Positions 16,259 to 23,848 of a stretch of 64,000 bases of DNA are shown here, one piece after another (the stretch's first letter is position 1; each line of letters begins with the position of its first letter). The notes beneath the pieces are model-generated. The model saw nothing but the letters and a program-made list of their open reading frames with translations, did not search any database and was not told where the DNA came from. Position numbers and translations under genes: made by a program. The DNA comes from an uncultured Acidobacteriota bacterium (GTDB lineage Bacteria > Acidobacteriota > Terriglobia > Terriglobales > Acidobacteriaceae), in NCBI GenBank assembly GCA_903832295.1, contig CAILAZ010000309.1, positions 1 through 64,000 on the forward strand. The letters are read 5' to 3'.

Positions 16259-19200
16259 CTAGAAGGTAATTTTGAGCGACAGTTGTGCGTTGAAGGGCTC
16301 GCCCGGACCGATGCCGGGGAGGCCAAACTGGGAGCCGTTAGTGTAGCCGATGGGAAAGCCCATGCTGAAGCCGGGAACGGCGATGATGCCGTTGGCTCCG
16401 GTGAACAGAGGGGCTCCGAGGTTGACGCGGTTGAAGATGTTGAACAGGTCCGCCCGAAGTTGGGCATGGACGCGTTCTGAGATTGCTGTTTCCTTGGAGA
16501 GATTCAAATCAACGTCGGCGAAACCAGGTCCGAAGAGCTGGTTGCGGCGCGTGGTTCCCCATGAGCCAAATGAGCTGGTGAAGGAATTGGCGTTGAACCA
16601 GTAAACCGGCTTGTGATTGACAACCGAGTGGGAGATGCCAGCGTAGGGATTGGCGATCTGGGTTGCACGGTCGGTGATTTCGGCGGTGCCACTGGGATCG
16701 ACGTAGTTGTTGACGGTGAAGGGCTGCCCGGATCGGATGCTGAGCAGGCTGCTGACCCGCCAGCCTTTGCTGAGCCGTCCCAGAGCAGGCAAGAACGCGG
16801 GCACGTCATAGGAGAGGAAAGCGGTGAAGTTGTTCCGCTGATCGAAGTCGCTGTTGCCGTACTCGCCGCGCCGGTTCGTGCTGTCCTGGGGAAGAAGCAA
16901 GAAGCTGCCGTAGTCCAGCGTATGCGCCCAGGTATAAGCGAACTGGGAAGTTACGCCGTGCCAGGATTGCGTTTTGAGCGTAGCCTGCAGTGAATTGTAG
17001 TTGGAGGTGCCGCCACTGGAGAGTTCGTTGATGAAGGTGTAGTTGGGATATTTCGAATAGAACGGGCGAGTGGTGTTGTAATCGGCCGCGTAATACTCGC
17101 TGCCCAGCGCCGCCTGGTTGATGTCATTGATCAACAGCAGATGCCGTCCCAGGCTGCCTACGTAGGCAATCTCGGCGAGGGCGGCTTTGCCCAGTCCATG
17201 CTGGATACCCAGCCGGTAGTTGAGCAGGCGGGGCGTGGTGAGGTGCTGGCTGACGGCGAAGAGGCTGATTGCGCTGTTCGGGGTGGCGCTGGCGAAGACA
17301 TTCGAGCCATTCGTGGGAAGCGCCGAGGTGCCACCGTTGTTGTAAAGATTGAGGGTCTGCACCTGGTTGTTTCCCACCGGATTATCCTGTGCGCCGCTGG
17401 CTCCGCCGTTGGCGAGGTTGCCGTCAGCGAGGAACGACGCGGCACTGACGGTATCAAAGGCGAGACCGATCGAGCCCCGGATGGCAGTGTTGGAGTCATG
17501 GAAGGGGCGGAGAGCAAAACCAAAATTCGGGGCGAAGTTCGTCTTTACTCCCGGGTAAAGCGTCCTGATGTCTTTTCCGGCGACCAGCAGGCCGCGCTGC
17601 GGATCAAAGGTTGTGAGATTCTGGTTTCCATTCTGCACCGGCTGATTGTAGCCATAGCGCAAGCCGAAAGTGAGACTCAACCGGCGCGTCGCCTGAAAGC
17701 GATCCTGCCCGAAGAAAGAGAAACCATTGCTGCTAAGCCAACGGGTAGGATCTCCGTGAACGAGCTTGGCGTTGCTGTAATATCCGGCAAGAAAGTCGGC
17801 GAGGGATTGCAGGTAGGGGTCGGTGACGGTTGAGAGCTGCGGATTGGTCCACGGACCCTGGTCTCCATAGAAGTTGAACACGCCGCGCTGATTGTTGTGA
17901 TAGAACGCATGGATCTTGTTGTATCGGAACTCACCGCCGAAGCGCAGTTCGTGGCGGCCGACGCCGTAGGTCACGGTGTCCGTCAGGTGCCAGCTCAGGT
18001 CGCGGCGGCCAGAATAGGGATTGATGCCGATGGGATCAAAGAGCGAGTTGCCGGTGCCGTCATTACCGATATTGATGCGAGGCGCGCCGGCGAGTTGCGG
18101 ATCGGTGACGCCGGTATTGAGTCCCAGTGCCGCCGGACTGTAACTGGTGTTGGCGTCGGCCTCGGTCTGCTGGAAGAAGTTAATACCCAGCAGGAGTTGA
18201 TTGGCGGCCCGGTCCGAGAGTGTGGAGTTCTGTACCAGCGCCCAGTTCTGCACCCGCATGGGCGAGGACTCGAAATAGGGTGAGAGGAAGGAAGAAGTGG
18301 GCGCCGTCTGGTGGCCCTGCGCGATGAAAGCACGGAGGCTAAGCCGCTCGCGCTCGCTCAATGTGTGCTCAATCCTGACGATTGCGTTGTTGCTGTAGCC
18401 GGTCTCCGTGCCTGGGTTGGAGTAGTTGCCCGGGCTTGCCGGGCCGTTGAGCGCGGAGGACGGCCAGAGGTTGGCGAGCAGCTTGGCCGATACCGGGTTC
18501 TGGACTACCGGGGCGTAGGTGCCGTACTTGCCTCCCGGATTGTTGAGCACATCGAGAGCGGCGGCCTGGTAGCCCTTGGGACCAGCGGAGGGTTCGGTAA
18601 CCACCACCGGATTCGTGAGATTGAAATTCTGGCGCTCATAGCTGGCGAAGTAGAAAGTACGGTTCTTGAAGATAGGTCCGCCAATGGTGAAGCCGAGTTG
18701 CTGGTTGCGCAGCTTGTTCTTGTGGACGATGTAATTGCCGCTGGCATCCGCGGCGCCGAATACCGGGTCAGCGGCCAGTGCCTCATGCCGCAAGTAGTAG
18801 TAGGCCGAGCCGTGCAGCTGGTTGGTGCCCGACTTCAAGGCAAGATTCACGGTGGGGCCGGGGTTGCGGCTGGTCTCGGCGCCGCCCTGGGTGAGAATTG
18901 AGAACTCTTCAACGGAATCCAGCGGCAGCAGCACACCGGGAATTCCATAGACGCCGCCCTGGTTGACCGCCGAAGTGTTGATCCACAGGTCGTTGTTATC
19001 GGCACCCTCAATCTGCCAGTTTGTCTGCGAGGCCTGCGAACCATTGATGGCGCTCATGAAGCCGACTCCATAGCCGGAGTAACCGGGAGTAAGCGTGAGC
19101 AACTGGGTGAAGTCGCGGCCGTTGAGAGGCACGTTCTGTACCATCTGGGGCAGCAACACATCCACATCAGAGGACGCCGAGGTGTCCACTGCGAGGGCCG

Positions 19201-19591
19201 CCGCCGTGACGTTTACCTTCTCAGCCACGGCATGCACCGTGAGCTTGAGCGCGAGGGGGTAAGCGCTGCCCGCGCTGACTTCGATGCGCTGAACCGTCAG
19301 CGGATCAAAACCAGCATGGGACACGGTAAGCGCGTAGCTGCCCAGCGGCAGATCCAACAGGGAGAACTCGCCGGCAGTGGTGGTCTGGGTGGAGTAGCTC
19401 TGCCCGGTGGATGCACTGACAGCTTTGACCTCGGTGCCGCTCAACAACGCTCCGGAGGCGTCCTCCACGTGGCCACGAATGCCTCCGCGGAATGTCTGGG
19501 CCTCAACAGGGAGGCTGGCAAATAGAAGGAAGGTGGCGGCCAAGAAAACGCTCAGGCCCAACGACAAGGACTTCAGGGTACGGGAATACAT
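16259..19591 (-). CDS. TonB-dependent receptor, Oar-like, with carboxypeptidase-regulatory-like N-terminal domain
   Basis: Start trimmed to MYSRTLKSLSLG signal peptide; GGIRGHVEDASGALLSGTEVKAV domain; plug NVPLNGRDFTQLLTLTPG; beta-barrel C-terminus. Confidence 0.92.
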   Translation of the reverse strand: MYSRTLKSLSLGLSVFLAATFLLFASLPVEAQTFRGGIRGHVEDASGALLSGTEVKAVSASTGQSYSTQTTTAGEFSLLDLPLGSYALTVSHAGFDPLTVQRIEVSAGSAYPLALKLTVHAVAEKVNVTAAALAVDTSASSDVDVLLPQMVQNVPLNGRDFTQLLTLTPGYSGYGVGFMSAINGSQASQTNWQIEGADNNDLWINTSAVNQGGVYGIPGVLLPLDSVEEFSILTQGGAETSRNPGPTVNLALKSGTNQLHGSAYYYLRHEALAADPVFGAADASGNYIVHKNKLRNQQLGFTIGGPIFKNRTFYFASYERQNFNLTNPVVVTEPSAGPKGYQAAALDVLNNPGGKYGTYAPVVQNPVSAKLLANLWPSSALNGPASPGNYSNPGTETGYSNNAIVRIEHTLSERERLSLRAFIAQGHQTAPTSSFLSPYFESSPMRVQNWALVQNSTLSDRAANQLLLGINFFQQTEADANTSYSPAALGLNTGVTDPQLAGAPRINIGNDGTGNSLFDPIGINPYSGRRDLSWHLTDTVTYGVGRHELRFGGEFRYNKIHAFYHNNQRGVFNFYGDQGPWTNPQLSTVTDPYLQSLADFLAGYYSNAKLVHGDPTRWLSSNGFSFFGQDRFQATRRLSLTFGLRYGYNQPVQNGNQNLTTFDPQRGLLVAGKDIRTLYPGVKTNFAPNFGFALRPFHDSNTAIRGSIGLAFDTVSAASFLADGNLANGGASGAQDNPVGNNQVQTLNLYNNGGTSALPTNGSNVFASATPNSAISLFAVSQHLTTPRLLNYRLGIQHGLGKAALAEIAYVGSLGRHLLLINDINQAALGSEYYAADYNTTRPFYSKYPNYTFINELSSGGTSNYNSLQATLKTQSWHGVTSQFAYTWAHTLDYGSFLLLPQDSTNRRGEYGNSDFDQRNNFTAFLSYDVPAFLPALGRLSKGWRVSSLLSIRSGQPFTVNNYVDPSGTAEITDRATQIANPYAGISHSVVNHKPVYWFNANSFTSSFGSWGTTRRNQLFGPGFADVDLNLSKETAISERVHAQLRADLFNIFNRVNLGAPLFTGANGIIAVPGFSMGFPIGYTNGSQFGLPGIGPGEPFNAQLSLKITF

Positions 19592-19693: not shown

Positions 19694-19722
19694 AAGGCCC
19701 ACGATGGGTGCTCGTGGGCCTT
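19694..19722 (-). terminator. attenuator hairpin in the leader of the TonB receptor gene
   Basis: On the minus strand AAGGCCCACGA-gcaccca-TCGTGGGCCTT (11 bp perfect stem) followed by CTGCTTTTTG. Confidence 0.8.
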
Positions 19723-19746: not shown

Positions 19747-19839
19747 CTATGGAGTAACTCGGACTCTGGCGGCAAGCGCGCACGCACCCAGGGTGGGCTG
19801 CATACAACAACAGATCGCGGCTTGCGAAATCGCCTTCAT
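19747..19839 (-). CDS. predicted Cys-rich leader peptide, MKAISQAAICCCMQPTLGACALAARVRVTP
   Basis: 30-codon ORF with TGT TGT TGT ATG; promoter-like TTGACA-18-TACTCT places the start site at or near the ATG; followed by hairpin 19694-19722; leader segment 19784-19790 complementary to the hairpin loop. Confidence 0.65.
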   Translation of the reverse strand: MKAISQAAICCCMQPTLGACALAARVRVTP

Positions 19840-19942
19840 GTAGAGCGAGAGTAACTGGAAAGCAAAATTTCTGTCAACTTGAAATTGCGGCTTCACTGAT
19901 TTTTCACTTGTGCAGCGCTGGAAAGTTCGCTAGAGTGAGTGC

Positions 19943-20023
19943 ATGATTTTCTCCTCCACCATGGCCTGTTGTTGCGCGAGCATGTGTATGTGCATGCGCG
20001 ACGGCTCTGGCATGGGGAGATAA
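19943..20023 (+). CDS. predicted Cys/Met-rich leader peptide, MIFSSTMACCCASMCMCMRDGSGMGR
   Basis: 26-codon ORF with TGT TGT TGC and ATG-TGT-ATG-TGC-ATG; promoter-like TTGTGC-17-TAGAGT ends 6 nt before ATG; followed by terminator 20053-20086 with a complementary leader segment. Confidence 0.7.
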   Translation: MIFSSTMACCCASMCMCMRDGSGMGR

Positions 20024-20052
20024 TCGACAGCTTTCAGTAATAAGTTTTGTCG

Positions 20053-20086
20053 AACCCACTGCCAGAGCGCAGTGGGTTTTTGTTTT
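20053..20086 (+). terminator. attenuator/terminator immediately upstream of tRNA-Cys
   Basis: AACCCACTGC-cagagc-GCAGTGGGTT followed by TTTGTTTT; 10 bp perfect stem. Confidence 0.85.
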
Positions 20087-20088
20087 AG

Positions 20089-20164
20089 GCACGGGTGGCG
20101 AAGCGGCTAACGCGGCGGACTGCAAATCCGTTATTCATGGGTTCAAATCCCATCCCGTGCTCCA
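20089..20164 (+). tRNA. tRNA-Cys (anticodon GCA at 20122-20124), CCA encoded
   Basis: Acceptor GCACGGG/CCCGTGC, discriminator T then CCA; anticodon arm GGACTGCAAATCC; T-arm ATGGGTTCAAATCCCAT. Confidence 0.93.
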
Positions 20165-20186
20165 GCATCCGCAAGGACGTAAGACG

Positions 20187-20291
20187 ATGACGACCACGCC
20201 CAATTCGACGATGACCGGCACGGCCACCATGGCCATGTGCATGTGTATGCGTCACGGTATCCCTGGCGTGGGCGGAGAATCCGGAGAGTAA
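20187..20291 (+). CDS. predicted Cys/Met-rich leader peptide, MTTTPNSTMTGTATMAMCMCMRHGIPGVGGESGE
   Basis: 34-codon ORF 22 nt after tRNA-Cys; shares MCMCMR[D/H]G with the upstream leader using different synonymous codons; followed by terminator hairpin 20319-20347 with a complementary leader segment. Confidence 0.68.
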   Translation: MTTTPNSTMTGTATMAMCMCMRHGIPGVGGESGE

Positions 20292-20318: not shown

Positions 20319-20354
20319 AAGGCCCACGCCGAACAAGCGTGGGCCTTCCCTTTT
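20319..20354 (+). terminator. attenuator hairpin upstream of ORF 20378..20710
   Basis: AAGGCCCACGC-cgaacaa-GCGTGGGCCTT then CCCTTTT; 11 bp perfect stem. Confidence 0.78.
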
Positions 20355-20377: not shown

Positions 20378-20710
20378 ATGAAACAGCAAGCGCATTCGCA
20401 ACCGCAAACCAAAACCCTGACGCACATCTACGTCCGCGACGCACAGCAGGGCTTTGTGCGCCCCTGCTGGGCCAGCGGCCCGGAGCTGTATTGCGGCATG
20501 TGCATGCGGGGTGTGGTGCGGGCGGAGCTCGGTGCGACCTGCCCGGTGTGCAGCAGCACGGTGGAGCGCATTCTGGAAGTTACCGAAGGGGGTACGCCGA
20601 AGTTCACACGCCAACGACGTGAGTGTTCCATCCGCGTGGGTGCGGCGCGGCAGGAGGAACGACAGGCTGTGCTGTTGAACTTCAGGGCTTCGCAGCGGGG
20701 GCTTGCATAA
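20378..20710 (+). CDS. small zinc-ribbon-like hypothetical protein
   Basis: Trimmed from ORF 20237..20710 to ATG with AGGAGC RBS; YCGMCMRGVVRAELGATCPVCSS CxxC pairs. Confidence 0.55.
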   Translation: MKQQAHSQPQTKTLTHIYVRDAQQGFVRPCWASGPELYCGMCMRGVVRAELGATCPVCSSTVERILEVTEGGTPKFTRQRRECSIRVGAARQEERQAVLLNFRASQRGLA

Positions 20711-20781: not shown

Positions 20782-21132
20782 CTAGGCGGCCATCATCATC
20801 TTTGCAGTCATCGAACAGGACTCGGCGCAGCGTCGGCACATTTCCGCGCAACGCATCATCATCGGATTGTCGCTCATGCCTTCGCACATCATCGCGCAGG
20901 CGCTGCACATCTCGGCGCACATCATGCACATCTTGCCGCCCATGGGAGACATGCGCATCATCATGTTTGCGCACATCTGGCACATCTCCATGCAGTCCAT
21001 GAGCATGGACATCTTCTTCATGTCCATCATGCCCATCTTCATGCACTGCATCATGGCTTCCATGCACATTGCCATGCAGCTGCGACAATCCTCCATACAT
21101 CGACGCATGTCCATTGACATTTCCATTTCCAT
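20782..21132 (-). CDS. hyper Met/Cys-rich four-helix-bundle copper-binding protein (DUF326/Csp-like)
   Basis: 116 aa with 42 Met and 17 Cys by manual count; repeated CxxxC and CxxC patterns (MRRCMEDCRSCMAMC...RCAEMCRRCAESC); RBS AGGAGA. Confidence 0.8.
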   Translation of the reverse strand: MEMEMSMDMRRCMEDCRSCMAMCMEAMMQCMKMGMMDMKKMSMLMDCMEMCQMCANMMMRMSPMGGKMCMMCAEMCSACAMMCEGMSDNPMMMRCAEMCRRCAESCSMTAKMMMAA

Positions 21133-21314: not shown

Positions 21315-22475
21315 TTATTTGGCGGCGAACGAGAGCGCGTGGCTGGCGGCGGCGGTGAGCGCCTGATCGAGGTCGGCAATGAGGTCTCCGCTGTCTTCAA
21401 TGCCTACGGAGATACGCACAAGTTCCGGCGGCAGTACGCGCGTGGCGGCGATCTCCGGGGGCACGCTGGCGTGCGACATGGCGGCCGGGAGGCTGATGGT
21501 TGAGTGAACGCTTCCAAAGCTGACGCAGATCTGGAACATCTTTGCATTCTCGGCAATTGCCTTTGCGGCCTCCGTGGAGTGCGCCGTAAAGCTCAATACC
21601 GATCCCGCCCCGCTGGCCTGGCTGCGCTGCAACGGGGAGTGGGTGAGCCCGGGATAGAAGACATGGCCGACTCGCGCATCGGCGGCGAGGAATTCCGCAA
21701 TCGCCTGGGCGTTGCGCTGCTGCGCATCCAGGCGGAGCTTCAGGGTCTTGAGTCCGCGTTGCAATAGAAAGCAGTCAAAAGGCGCCAGCGCATTGCCCTC
21801 GGCGTTTTGCAGGAAGGCGATGTCGCCGCCAAGTTTCTCATCCCGAACGACCACCATGCCGCCGGTGACATCGGCATGCCCGCAGAGGAATTTTGTCGCG
21901 GAGTGGAGGACGACGTCGGCACCCAACTCCAAGGGACGCTGGAGGTAAGGCGACATGAGGGAGTTATCCACCACAAGCAGCGCACCATTGGCATGCGCCA
22001 GCGCAGCGAGGGCGCGGAGGTCCAGTACGCGCAGCAGTGGGTTGGTGGGGGACTCGGCATAGATGATGCGGGTGCGCGGCGTGATCTTCGCCGCAAAAGT
22101 CTCGAGGTCTCCGGCATCGGCGTAATGTGCGGTAATTCCGCTGCGCTCGAGCACGCGGGTAAAGAGACGGCAGGTGCCGCCATAGAGATCGCTGTCTGCG
22201 AGAATTTCATCCCCGGCGCGCAGGGTGCGCGCCACGGCAGTAATGGCCGCCATGCCGCTGGCGAAGGCAAAGCCACGCTGGCCGCCTTCCAGCTTTGCCA
22301 CGAGTTCCTCAAGAACCTTGCGGGTGGGATTACCACTCCGCGAGTAATCGAAGTCGCCGAAGCTATCGGCGTGCTCCTGCTCAAAGGTCGCCGTCTGGTA
22401 GATGGGCGTGGCCGTGGGACGGTAGGGGTCGCCGGGGGCGGCCTGATGCTGCACGAGCTGACTAGCGAACTTCAC
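21315..22475 (-). CDS. trans-sulfuration PLP-dependent enzyme (cystathionine gamma-synthase/lyase family)
   Basis: GTG start at 22475 overlapping the previous stop, AGGAGG RBS; PLP lysine motif HSATKFLCGHADVTGG. Confidence 0.88.
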   Translation of the reverse strand: MKFASQLVQHQAAPGDPYRPTATPIYQTATFEQEHADSFGDFDYSRSGNPTRKVLEELVAKLEGGQRGFAFASGMAAITAVARTLRAGDEILADSDLYGGTCRLFTRVLERSGITAHYADAGDLETFAAKITPRTRIIYAESPTNPLLRVLDLRALAALAHANGALLVVDNSLMSPYLQRPLELGADVVLHSATKFLCGHADVTGGMVVVRDEKLGGDIAFLQNAEGNALAPFDCFLLQRGLKTLKLRLDAQQRNAQAIAEFLAADARVGHVFYPGLTHSPLQRSQASGAGSVLSFTAHSTEAAKAIAENAKMFQICVSFGSVHSTISLPAAMSHASVPPEIAATRVLPPELVRISVGIEDSGDLIADLDQALTAAASHALSFAAK

Positions 22476-23673
22476 TGGCGGCCTCCTGAGCGCGTTGGGC
22501 GCAAGACAGAGCGCAACCCGCGGCGGCAAAGGCCTGCGCGAGATCGGCGATGATGTCGGCGGGCGACTCCAGCCCGACGGAAATGCGGATGAGTCCCTCG
22601 GAAATTCCGAGAGCCGCGCGCGTCTCCGCACCGAGGTCGGCGTGAGTGGTGGAGGCCGGATGGGTGATCAATGTCTCCAGCCCTCCCAGGCTTTCGGCGC
22701 GCGAGCAGAGCTGGACCGAGTTGAGCACAGCGATGGCGGTCTCAAAGGGAGCGTCGAGTTCAAAGCTCAACATGCCACCGGCGGCGCGCTGCTGTCGCAA
22801 CGCAAGCTCGTGCTGGGGAAAGCTCCGCAGGCCCGGGTAGTAGACGCGGGCAACCGACGGTTGCGACTCGAGCCACTCGGCGATCTGCTGCGCGTTCTCG
22901 CAGTGGAGGCGCAGCCTGGCAGGGAGCGTCTTGATGCCCTGAAGGGTGAGCCACGCCTCGAAGGGCGCCTGTATGGAGCCGAGCGTCTTGCGAATCAAAC
23001 GGAAGCGCTCCGCAAGCTCCGGGTTTTGCGTAGCCAGCGATCCGCCGACGGTGGCGTTATGTCCGTCCATGTACTTGGTAGTGGAGAGGACGCTGATATC
23101 CGCACCCAGTTCCAACGGGCGCTGGAGCGCGGGAGTCAGGAAGGTGTTATCCACGGCGAGCAAGAGTCCGTGACGGCGCGTAATTTCAGCAACCGCGGCA
23201 ATGTCTGTGAGGGTGAGGATGGGATTGGCCGGAGACTCGATGAAGACGATGCGCGTCTGCGGGGTGATTGCCGCTTGCACGTTCGCGGCCTCGGAGGTGT
23301 CCACAAAACTGGCGGTGACGCCGAAGGGCTCAAGGATTTCGCGGAAGAGACGGATGGTGCCGCCGTAGAGCACCTTGGAGAGGATGGCGTGGTCGCCGGC
23401 CTTGAGGAGGGAGAAGAACAGCGTGCTCTCTGCTGCCAGACCGGTGCGGAAACACACTGCCGGCGGCGTACCCTCGAGTGCGCCGATGGCCCGCTCGAGC
23501 GCATCTACCGTGGGGTTGGAGACGCGCGAGTAGCTGAAACCCTTATCTACACCGACGGCATCGTGAACGAAGGTGCCCGTCTGGTAGAGCGGGAAGAGCA
23601 GCGAACTGGCGTGCGAATCCAGCGAGCGTCCGCCGTGAATAGCAAGGGTGGCAATGTCGTGCGGGGAAGCCAT
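22462..23673 (-). CDS. trans-sulfuration PLP-dependent enzyme (cystathionine gamma-synthase/beta-lyase family)
   Basis: LAIHGGRSLD..., PLP lysine motif LSTTKYMDGHNATVGG, VYYPGL. Confidence 0.88.
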   Translation of the reverse strand: MASPHDIATLAIHGGRSLDSHASSLLFPLYQTGTFVHDAVGVDKGFSYSRVSNPTVDALERAIGALEGTPPAVCFRTGLAAESTLFFSLLKAGDHAILSKVLYGGTIRLFREILEPFGVTASFVDTSEAANVQAAITPQTRIVFIESPANPILTLTDIAAVAEITRRHGLLLAVDNTFLTPALQRPLELGADISVLSTTKYMDGHNATVGGSLATQNPELAERFRLIRKTLGSIQAPFEAWLTLQGIKTLPARLRLHCENAQQIAEWLESQPSVARVYYPGLRSFPQHELALRQQRAAGGMLSFELDAPFETAIAVLNSVQLCSRAESLGGLETLITHPASTTHADLGAETRAALGISEGLIRISVGLESPADIIADLAQAFAAAGCALSCAQRAQEAASEVR

Positions 23674-23712: not shown

Positions 23713-23745
23713 CAAATTTGCCGTCTTGAGAGTCCCCCAGACGGC
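23713..23745 (-). terminator. predicted attenuator hairpin upstream of the trans-sulfuration operon
   Basis: Minus strand GCCGTCT-(12 nt)-AGACGGC followed by AAATTTGTTTT; the 5' arm is complementary to the leader ORF. Confidence 0.6.
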
Positions 23746-23770: not shown

Positions 23771-23848
23771 TCAAACACTCCGTGCTGGACGACCACCGCC
23801 TGGGGGGCACATGGCCATACGCATTCGAGAGTTGTTGAGCATCGTCAT
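23771..23848 (-). CDS. predicted Met-rich leader peptide, MTMLNNSRMRMAMCPPGGGRPARSV
   Basis: 25-codon ORF with ATG-CGT-ATG-GCC-ATG-TGC; RBS-like AGGAAA; promoter-like TTGGCA-16-TATGAT upstream; followed by hairpin 23720-23745. Confidence 0.6.
   Translation of the reverse strand: MTMLNNSRMRMAMCPPGGGRPARSV

Follow-up and report, generated by a model that had tools for sequence, protein, structure and literature searches.

The window analysed here comprises positions 1 to 64,000 of contig CAILAZ010000309.1 (assembly GCA_903832295.1), from an uncultured bacterium of the Acidobacteriaceae. On its plus strand, a predicted promoter is followed in order by a small open reading frame (leader 1), an intrinsic terminator, a tRNA-Cys(GCA) gene, a second small open reading frame (leader 2), a terminator hairpin, and a protein gene, ORF3 (Table 1). 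Because only 6 nt separate the -10 box from the ATG of leader 1, its transcript is probably leaderless. Exactly the same spacing occurs at L015 (L015a), L016, L017, L116, L158, and L160, where transcripts would likewise start at or near the start codon. For most leaders of this family, a -35/-10 pair can be seen immediately upstream, in many cases as TTGACA-17/18-TANNNT. No promoter of its own was seen for leader 2, which is preceded by AAGGA, a possible ribosome-binding site. Terminator 1 runs into the T tail TTGTTTTAGG, and hairpin 2 into TCCCTTTTGG, a weaker T run.

Table 1. Features of the locus and its surroundings, in window coordinates
Feature	Position	Strand	Details
TonB/Oar-type outer-membrane receptor, behind leader 3	16259-19591	-	PF25183, PF13620
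Leader 3 terminator	19694-19722	-	hairpin -20.1
Leader peptide 3, MKAISQAAICCCMQPTLGACALAARVRVTP (ICCCMQPTLGAC...)	19747-19839	-	divergent from leader 1
Predicted leader 1 promoter	19908-19936	+	TTGTGC (19908-19913), 17 nt, TAGAGT (19931-19936)
Leader peptide 1, MIFSSTMACCCASMCMCMRDGSGMGR	19943-20023	+	ATG 19943, stop 20021-20023
Region 2 of candidate attenuator 1, CTCTGGCATGGGG	20005-20017	+	complementary to terminator 5' arm
Intrinsic terminator 1	20052-20079	+	arm 3 20055-20067, arm 4 from 20070; -18.1 kcal/mol
Accessory tRNA-Cys, anticodon GCA	20089-20164	+	ARAGORN; Rfam tRNA 66.4 bits
Leader peptide 2, MTTTPNSTMTGTATMAMCMCMRHGIPGVGGESGE	20187-20291	+	ATG 20187, stop 20289-20291
Region 2 of candidate attenuator 2, GGCGTGGGC	20265-20273	+	complementary to arm 3 GCCCACGCC (20322-20330)
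Terminator hairpin 2, AGGCCCACGCC...GCGTGGGCCT	20320-20346	+	-20.0 kcal/mol
ORF3, CxxC...CxxC zinc-ribbon-like small protein	20378-20710	+	110 aa; behind candidate attenuator 2
Met/Cys-rich DUF326-repeat protein, Csp-like (four-helix copper-storage-like)	20782-21132	-	PF03860, 22.2 bits (cut-off 20.4)
Two PLP enzymes of Cys/Met metabolism, behind leader 4	22462-23673, 21315-22631	-	PF01053, E=5e-135 and 2e-130
Leader 4 terminator	23720-23745	-	duplex -25.5
Leader peptide 4, MTMLNNSRMRMAMCPPGGGRPARSV, Met-rich	23771-23848	-	conserved in relatives

The tRNA gene positioned between the two leaders is one of three tRNA-Cys genes in this genome. The canonical copy is on C264, in tandem with a tRNA-Gly gene, and another is on C235; neither has such a leader nearby, so the window copy alone is preceded by one. 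An Rfam scan of the window, which included T-box, riboswitch, and attenuator families, returned nothing above the gathering score except tRNA.

Leader 1 is rich in cysteine, with five Cys codons in 26 residues (19967-19975, 19985-19987, and 19991-19993). Only 7 of the 383 small ATG reading frames in the window encode five or more. The control codons of leader 2 are weaker, comprising two Cys codons and a Met run. Neither peptide has a Pfam match. The first-pass annotation of this DNA had read both frames as leader peptides ahead of terminators, and indeed a hairpin lies 3' of each. It had also noted that they share the octapeptide MCMCMR[D/H]G, which is exactly so: leader 1 has ATG TGT ATG TGC ATG CGC GAC GGC (19982-20005) and leader 2 has ATG TGC ATG TGT ATG CGT CAC GGT (20235-20258), with four of the eight codons differing synonymously and D/H the one replacement. 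The third-position differences in the Cys codons fit selection on codons and translation. When non-overlapping, same-strand ATG frames of 15-60 aa with starts at most 600 nt apart were compared across the window, two of 666 pairs reached identity at seven of eight residues; one is leaders 1 and 2, and the other (24429/24735) sits inside a repeat-rich gene. A count of the DNA pattern ATGTGYATGTGYATGCG over the whole 4.87 Mb genome gave two sites, both at these leaders, and none for reversed-pattern controls.

Region 2 of leader 1 can pair with CCCACTGCCAGAG, which is arm 3 of terminator 1. The predicted duplex (-21.2 kcal/mol) is far stronger than the mean of dinucleotide shuffles (-11.5), and none of 500 shuffles reaches it. 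For leader 2 the duplex is -23.4 against a shuffle mean of -16.1 (p=0.016). At L006, another leader that directly precedes a tRNA-Cys gene, the shuffles again give 0/500. Over 26 loci the combined p is 2.8e-16, a value that overstates independence because the loci are related. When arms were exchanged among 34 loci, leaders paired better with their own arms than with swapped ones (z=-7.8, 0/20000), and the arm of leader 2 was the best of the 34 for its leader. Stepwise folding gave a consistent picture at 12 of 12 loci: if a ribosome sits on the main cluster's Cys codons, arm 3 is able to pair with the leader ahead of the synthesis of arm 4; if the ribosome has reached the stop codon, this pairing is precluded. 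The probability of this early folding is only weakly better than that of shuffled sequences (reached by 26 of 300 for leader 1 and 21 of 300 for leader 2) and is not decisive alone; since it discriminates weakly, the duplex and swap tests were relied on instead. The Cys cluster ends 11 nt before region 2 in leader 1 and 18 nt before it in leader 2, spacings that suit a stalled ribosome leaving region 2 free. Inspection of minimum-energy folds showed region 2 paired with the start-codon side in all four cases viewed (leader 1, leader 2, L015, and L006).

The full layout of this locus was found in one other genome, that of the Acidobacteriaceae isolate palsa_359 (L015, which is the same as L076), where leader, terminator, tRNA-Cys, leader, hairpin, and ORF3 follow in this order. 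Its first leader is NSMCMCCCMCGRAGMG / MPVSAARNSMCMCCCMCGRAGMGN and its second is MAMGMCCCVFIGGGG / MTASTNPLINAMTQMAMGMCCCVFIGGGGIGT. The octapeptide is gone from both, while the Cys codons, the reading frame, and a near-identical first terminator (GAACCCACTGCCAG[A/T]GCGCAGTGGGTTTT) are kept. It is therefore the codon content and the RNA structure that have been conserved, and not the peptide. A search of 60 related genomes found MCMCMR[D/H]G in none of them, making the exact motif private to the window. In Acidobacterium sp. S8 (L016) and Centralia_MAG_86 (L017), the leader M[QR]FST[FL]S[PA]MCSMCMCC... stands ahead of ORF3, together with a strong terminator.

The accessory tRNA-Cys belongs to a class (GCAC[C/G]GGTGGCGAAG...) present in 17 of 64 sampled genomes of the family. 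A Cys-rich leader, such as ...PTCMCMCCCCGCAMRVHT or ...TCMCLCCCCRCCTMRVCS, lies upstream in 15 of the 17, directly in three and via a peroxiredoxin gene in twelve. If other searches beyond this survey are pooled with it, the direct arrangement of leader, terminator, and tRNA-Cys is found in seven genomes: that of the window and those of L015, L006, L085, L105, L106, and L130. In the latter six the peptides differ and the arms have changed yet remain matched, for example CTCTGGCA:TGCCAGAG in the window versus TTCTGGCG:CGTCAGAA in L006. Within the peroxiredoxin branch, GTGCGGGTG encodes a recurrent [AV]RV and also pairs with CACCCGC; some of the apparent peptide conservation in the family is thus RNA pairing. 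The order poly-Cys leader, terminator, peroxiredoxin, tRNA-Cys is seen at L115-L131, L008, L009, and L013, in many Acidobacteriaceae. At these loci the tRNA gene follows a protein gene under a candidate Cys attenuator.

Two covariance models were used, R1, built from 21 elements, and R2, from which the window, L015, and L006 were left out. R1 gives 56.4 bits for leader 1, which is in its training set, and 18.5 bits (E=2e-5) for leader 2, its second-best match in the window. With the held-out R2, leader 1 is the top match in the window at 20.7 bits (E=0.0015), a score similar to chance matches and not above the genome-scale background, and leader 2 is second at 17.2 bits (E=0.012). Outside its training set, R1 found MICCCRMCRISACCCCGKVPSGESVIVE and a terminator before the cysteine synthase gene of the window's own genome (E=9.6e-8). 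In relatives, the Cys-rich leaders that it found stand ahead of cysK, sulfite/nitrite-reductase-family, and peroxiredoxin genes, as well as those for an NMT1-like ABC substrate-binding protein and a carbonic anhydrase. Matches below about 25 bits were disregarded in these searches because many of them cover the terminator only. The leaders of cysteine synthase genes lie at G000:C157:2001-2136 on the minus strand (L133) in the window's genome and at L156 in a genome of the same genus. Those before nitrite/sulfite-reductase-family proteins (L160, L162, L164, and L170; e.g., CRCTCCCCCCCC) are also Cys-rich and followed by terminators. One attenuator-like match, L168 (G083:C9:233221-233327), was rejected as a Cys element: it precedes an acetolactate-synthase-like gene, has no Cys leader, and is probably a branched-chain amino-acid attenuator.

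Two further leaders lie on the minus strand of the window. Leader 3, likewise a Cys leader, is the window's third-best match to both R1 and R2, and its duplex (-18.4) is reached by 14 of 500 shuffles. Together with the TonB/Oar-type receptor behind it, this leader suggests Cys-controlled uptake. Leader 4 has 12 bp of complementarity to its terminator (0/500 shuffles). At least eight relatives (L173-L180) carry leaders of the form RM.MAM at the corresponding position, and leader 4 looks like a member of a Met attenuator family. In these bacteria Met-rich leader runs thus accompany Met/Cys enzymes, and the Met codons of leaders 1 and 2 might also sense Met-tRNA. Across the leader family, Met is enriched within the Cys clusters (19 of 68 non-Cys residues, although the leaders are related and these are not 19 independent events), so the mixture of Met and Cys is real.

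Leader 1 thus combines a control-codon reading frame, a terminator, antiterminator complementarity, and a target gene linked to the same amino acid. Judged from the sequence, the probability that leader 1 and the hairpin at 20052-20079 form a ribosome-mediated attenuator, which would sense charged tRNA-Cys and regulate the accessory tRNA-Cys gene, is about four in five. The earlier suggestion that the leaders act as codon sensors is accordingly the best-supported reading of them. If Cys-tRNA is plentiful, the ribosome would reach the stop codon of leader 1 and cover region 2; with region 2 masked, terminator 1 would form and the transcript would end upstream of tRNA-Cys. If Cys-tRNA is scarce, the ribosome would stall on one of the leader's five Cys codons, leaving region 2 free to pair with arm 3, and tRNA-Cys would be transcribed in the absence of the terminator. 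The reading frames and their codons, the hairpins, the complementarity, the homologues, and the target genes are seen in the sequences themselves. From these we infer that the leader is translated, that stalling on it leads to antitermination, and that transcription then passes through tRNA-Cys into leader 2. Met codons within the cluster may add Met-tRNA sensing. Leader 2 repeats the layout between tRNA-Cys and ORF3 and would be a second gate in series. That it is a related gate before ORF3 is probable, albeit held with lower confidence owing to its two Cys codons and the weaker T run. A broader reading is likely, though slightly less so than that of leader 1 itself: scarcity of charged tRNA-Cys, acting via leader stalling, would switch on a spare tRNA-Cys gene as part of a sulfur-amino-acid regulon of the Acidobacteriaceae that joins tRNA-Cys supply, peroxide defence, and Cys synthesis.

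The first-pass annotation had also raised the possibilities that the Met-Cys string binds Cu(I) or stalls the ribosome as a peptide, and neither is supported. On the former, the string would bind Cu(I) inside the ribosomal exit tunnel or upon release, alter ribosome progress and termination, and so control the Csp-like protein. Alternating Met and Cys are plausible as a Cu(I) site, a Csp-like DUF326 gene adjoins, and copper-responsive upstream reading frames are known: CruR/CutF (DUF2946), which controls metal genes through Rho or translation, works by way of a peptide that binds copper and has a C-terminal proline-rich motif (PMC9973294). The leaders described here resemble CruR/CutF in being small, Cys-containing upstream frames that would control a downstream gene. 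However, none of the other attributes just listed for CruR/CutF was seen for them, the C-terminal proline-rich motif being absent from both peptides. Moreover, the peptide is not kept at the orthologous L015 locus, homologous leaders are plain poly-Cys and precede cysK, sulfite/nitrite-reductase-family, peroxiredoxin, and tRNA-Cys genes, which are sulfur/cysteine and peroxide genes and not copper genes, and the Csp-like gene, encoded on the other strand, has an upstream region of its own. The Met-rich leader 4 ahead of Cys/Met-metabolism enzymes also favours sulfur-amino-acid codon sensing over metal binding, and a stall-release RNA architecture accounts for the data without a ligand. Metal sensing by the nascent peptide is therefore improbable.

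If the octapeptide itself were under selection, as a peptide that arrests ribosomes or a functional small protein needed by both leaders, this would explain why seven of eight residues are common to them despite four synonymous changes, and the Met enrichment of the family's Cys clusters could be read in the same way. Yet the absence of the motif from the 60 related genomes searched, and its loss at a locus that keeps the Cys codons, the frame, and the first terminator, speak against it. In addition, the flanks of the two copies are alike (CACCATGGCC upstream and CTGGC[AG]TGGG downstream), so the pair is explained by a local duplication after which third positions drifted while Cys codons were selected for. 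Such selection seems marginally less probable than metal sensing. Least probable, by a similarly narrow margin, is that ordinary terminators happen to lie beside chance reading frames, the hairpins ending upstream transcripts while the tRNA gene and ORF3 have their own promoters. Hairpins 5' of tRNA genes can simply terminate upstream genes, and the tail of the leader 2 hairpin is weak, but terminator 1 has no same-strand gene upstream, the receptor gene being on the other strand, and the pairing of Cys leader and terminator recurs, with matched arms, before homologous tRNA-Cys and Cys-biosynthesis genes.

The usual view is that growth rate controls tRNA supply in bacteria. Gating of a tRNA gene through stalling at its own codons would, if true, be a direct feedback on the demand for charged tRNA. 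A non-exhaustive search of open-access papers for attenuated tRNA genes or Cys leader peptides brought up nothing directly relevant, and no earlier account of a tRNA gene under attenuation. The apparent novelties are a tRNA gene as the attenuated target, gates in tandem, and a regulon in the Acidobacteriaceae. Relatives appear to place such a switch on genes for cysteine synthesis and peroxide detoxification as well. Short leaders like these are readily missed in annotation.

Codon-specific attenuation is textbook knowledge. In the trp, his, and leu leader-peptide attenuators, control codons set the ribosome position, which decides between a 2:3 antiterminator and a 3:4 terminator. Control codons and alternative 2:3 and 3:4 pairing are proposed here too, and the pairing of the start-codon side with region 2 recalls the classical 1:2/2:3/3:4 scheme. 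In contrast to those systems, the leaders described here would sense Cys (perhaps also Met), the product would be a tRNA and the regulated gene that of the sensed molecule itself, and there would be two gates in series. In mycobacteria, leaderless small reading frames with Cys runs reportedly make downstream genes Cys-responsive (Canestrari and colleagues, 2020). The likeness lies in the small Cys-run frames, which here too would make downstream genes Cys-responsive; unlike in mycobacteria, there is an intrinsic terminator with leader-to-arm complementarity, one target is a tRNA gene, and the phylum is Acidobacteriota. Polycysteine attenuators using Cys codons are reported for mycobacteria, as cited in PMC13236596. 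The uORFC-8-2 motif upstream of cysS, for which attenuation sensing tRNA-Cys charging has been predicted, also consists of a Cys-codon frame followed by an intrinsic terminator (PMC8632094). It has two Cys codons before the CysRS gene, whereas here Cys clusters precede tRNA-Cys, peroxiredoxin, cysK, and sulfite/nitrite-reductase-family genes.

ORF3 has no Pfam match above the cut-off. Convincing homologues were found in only three other sampled genomes, with C39, C42, C55, and C58 invariant. The Csp-like gene is convergent to ORF3, and a similar protein is convergent to it in L016 and L017; in L015 the Csp-like gene beside the ORF3 homologue is reduced to a remnant. That homologue has TAG (L015:1589-1591) where the window has TAT, encoding the Tyr before CGMCMR. 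Stop-codon recoding was considered and rejected, since with a GCA anticodon in the tRNA and a degraded Csp-like neighbour, pseudogenisation or a sequencing error is simpler. The zinc-ribbon CGMCMRG of ORF3 resembles the MCMCMR[D/H]G of the leaders, possibly by coincidence.
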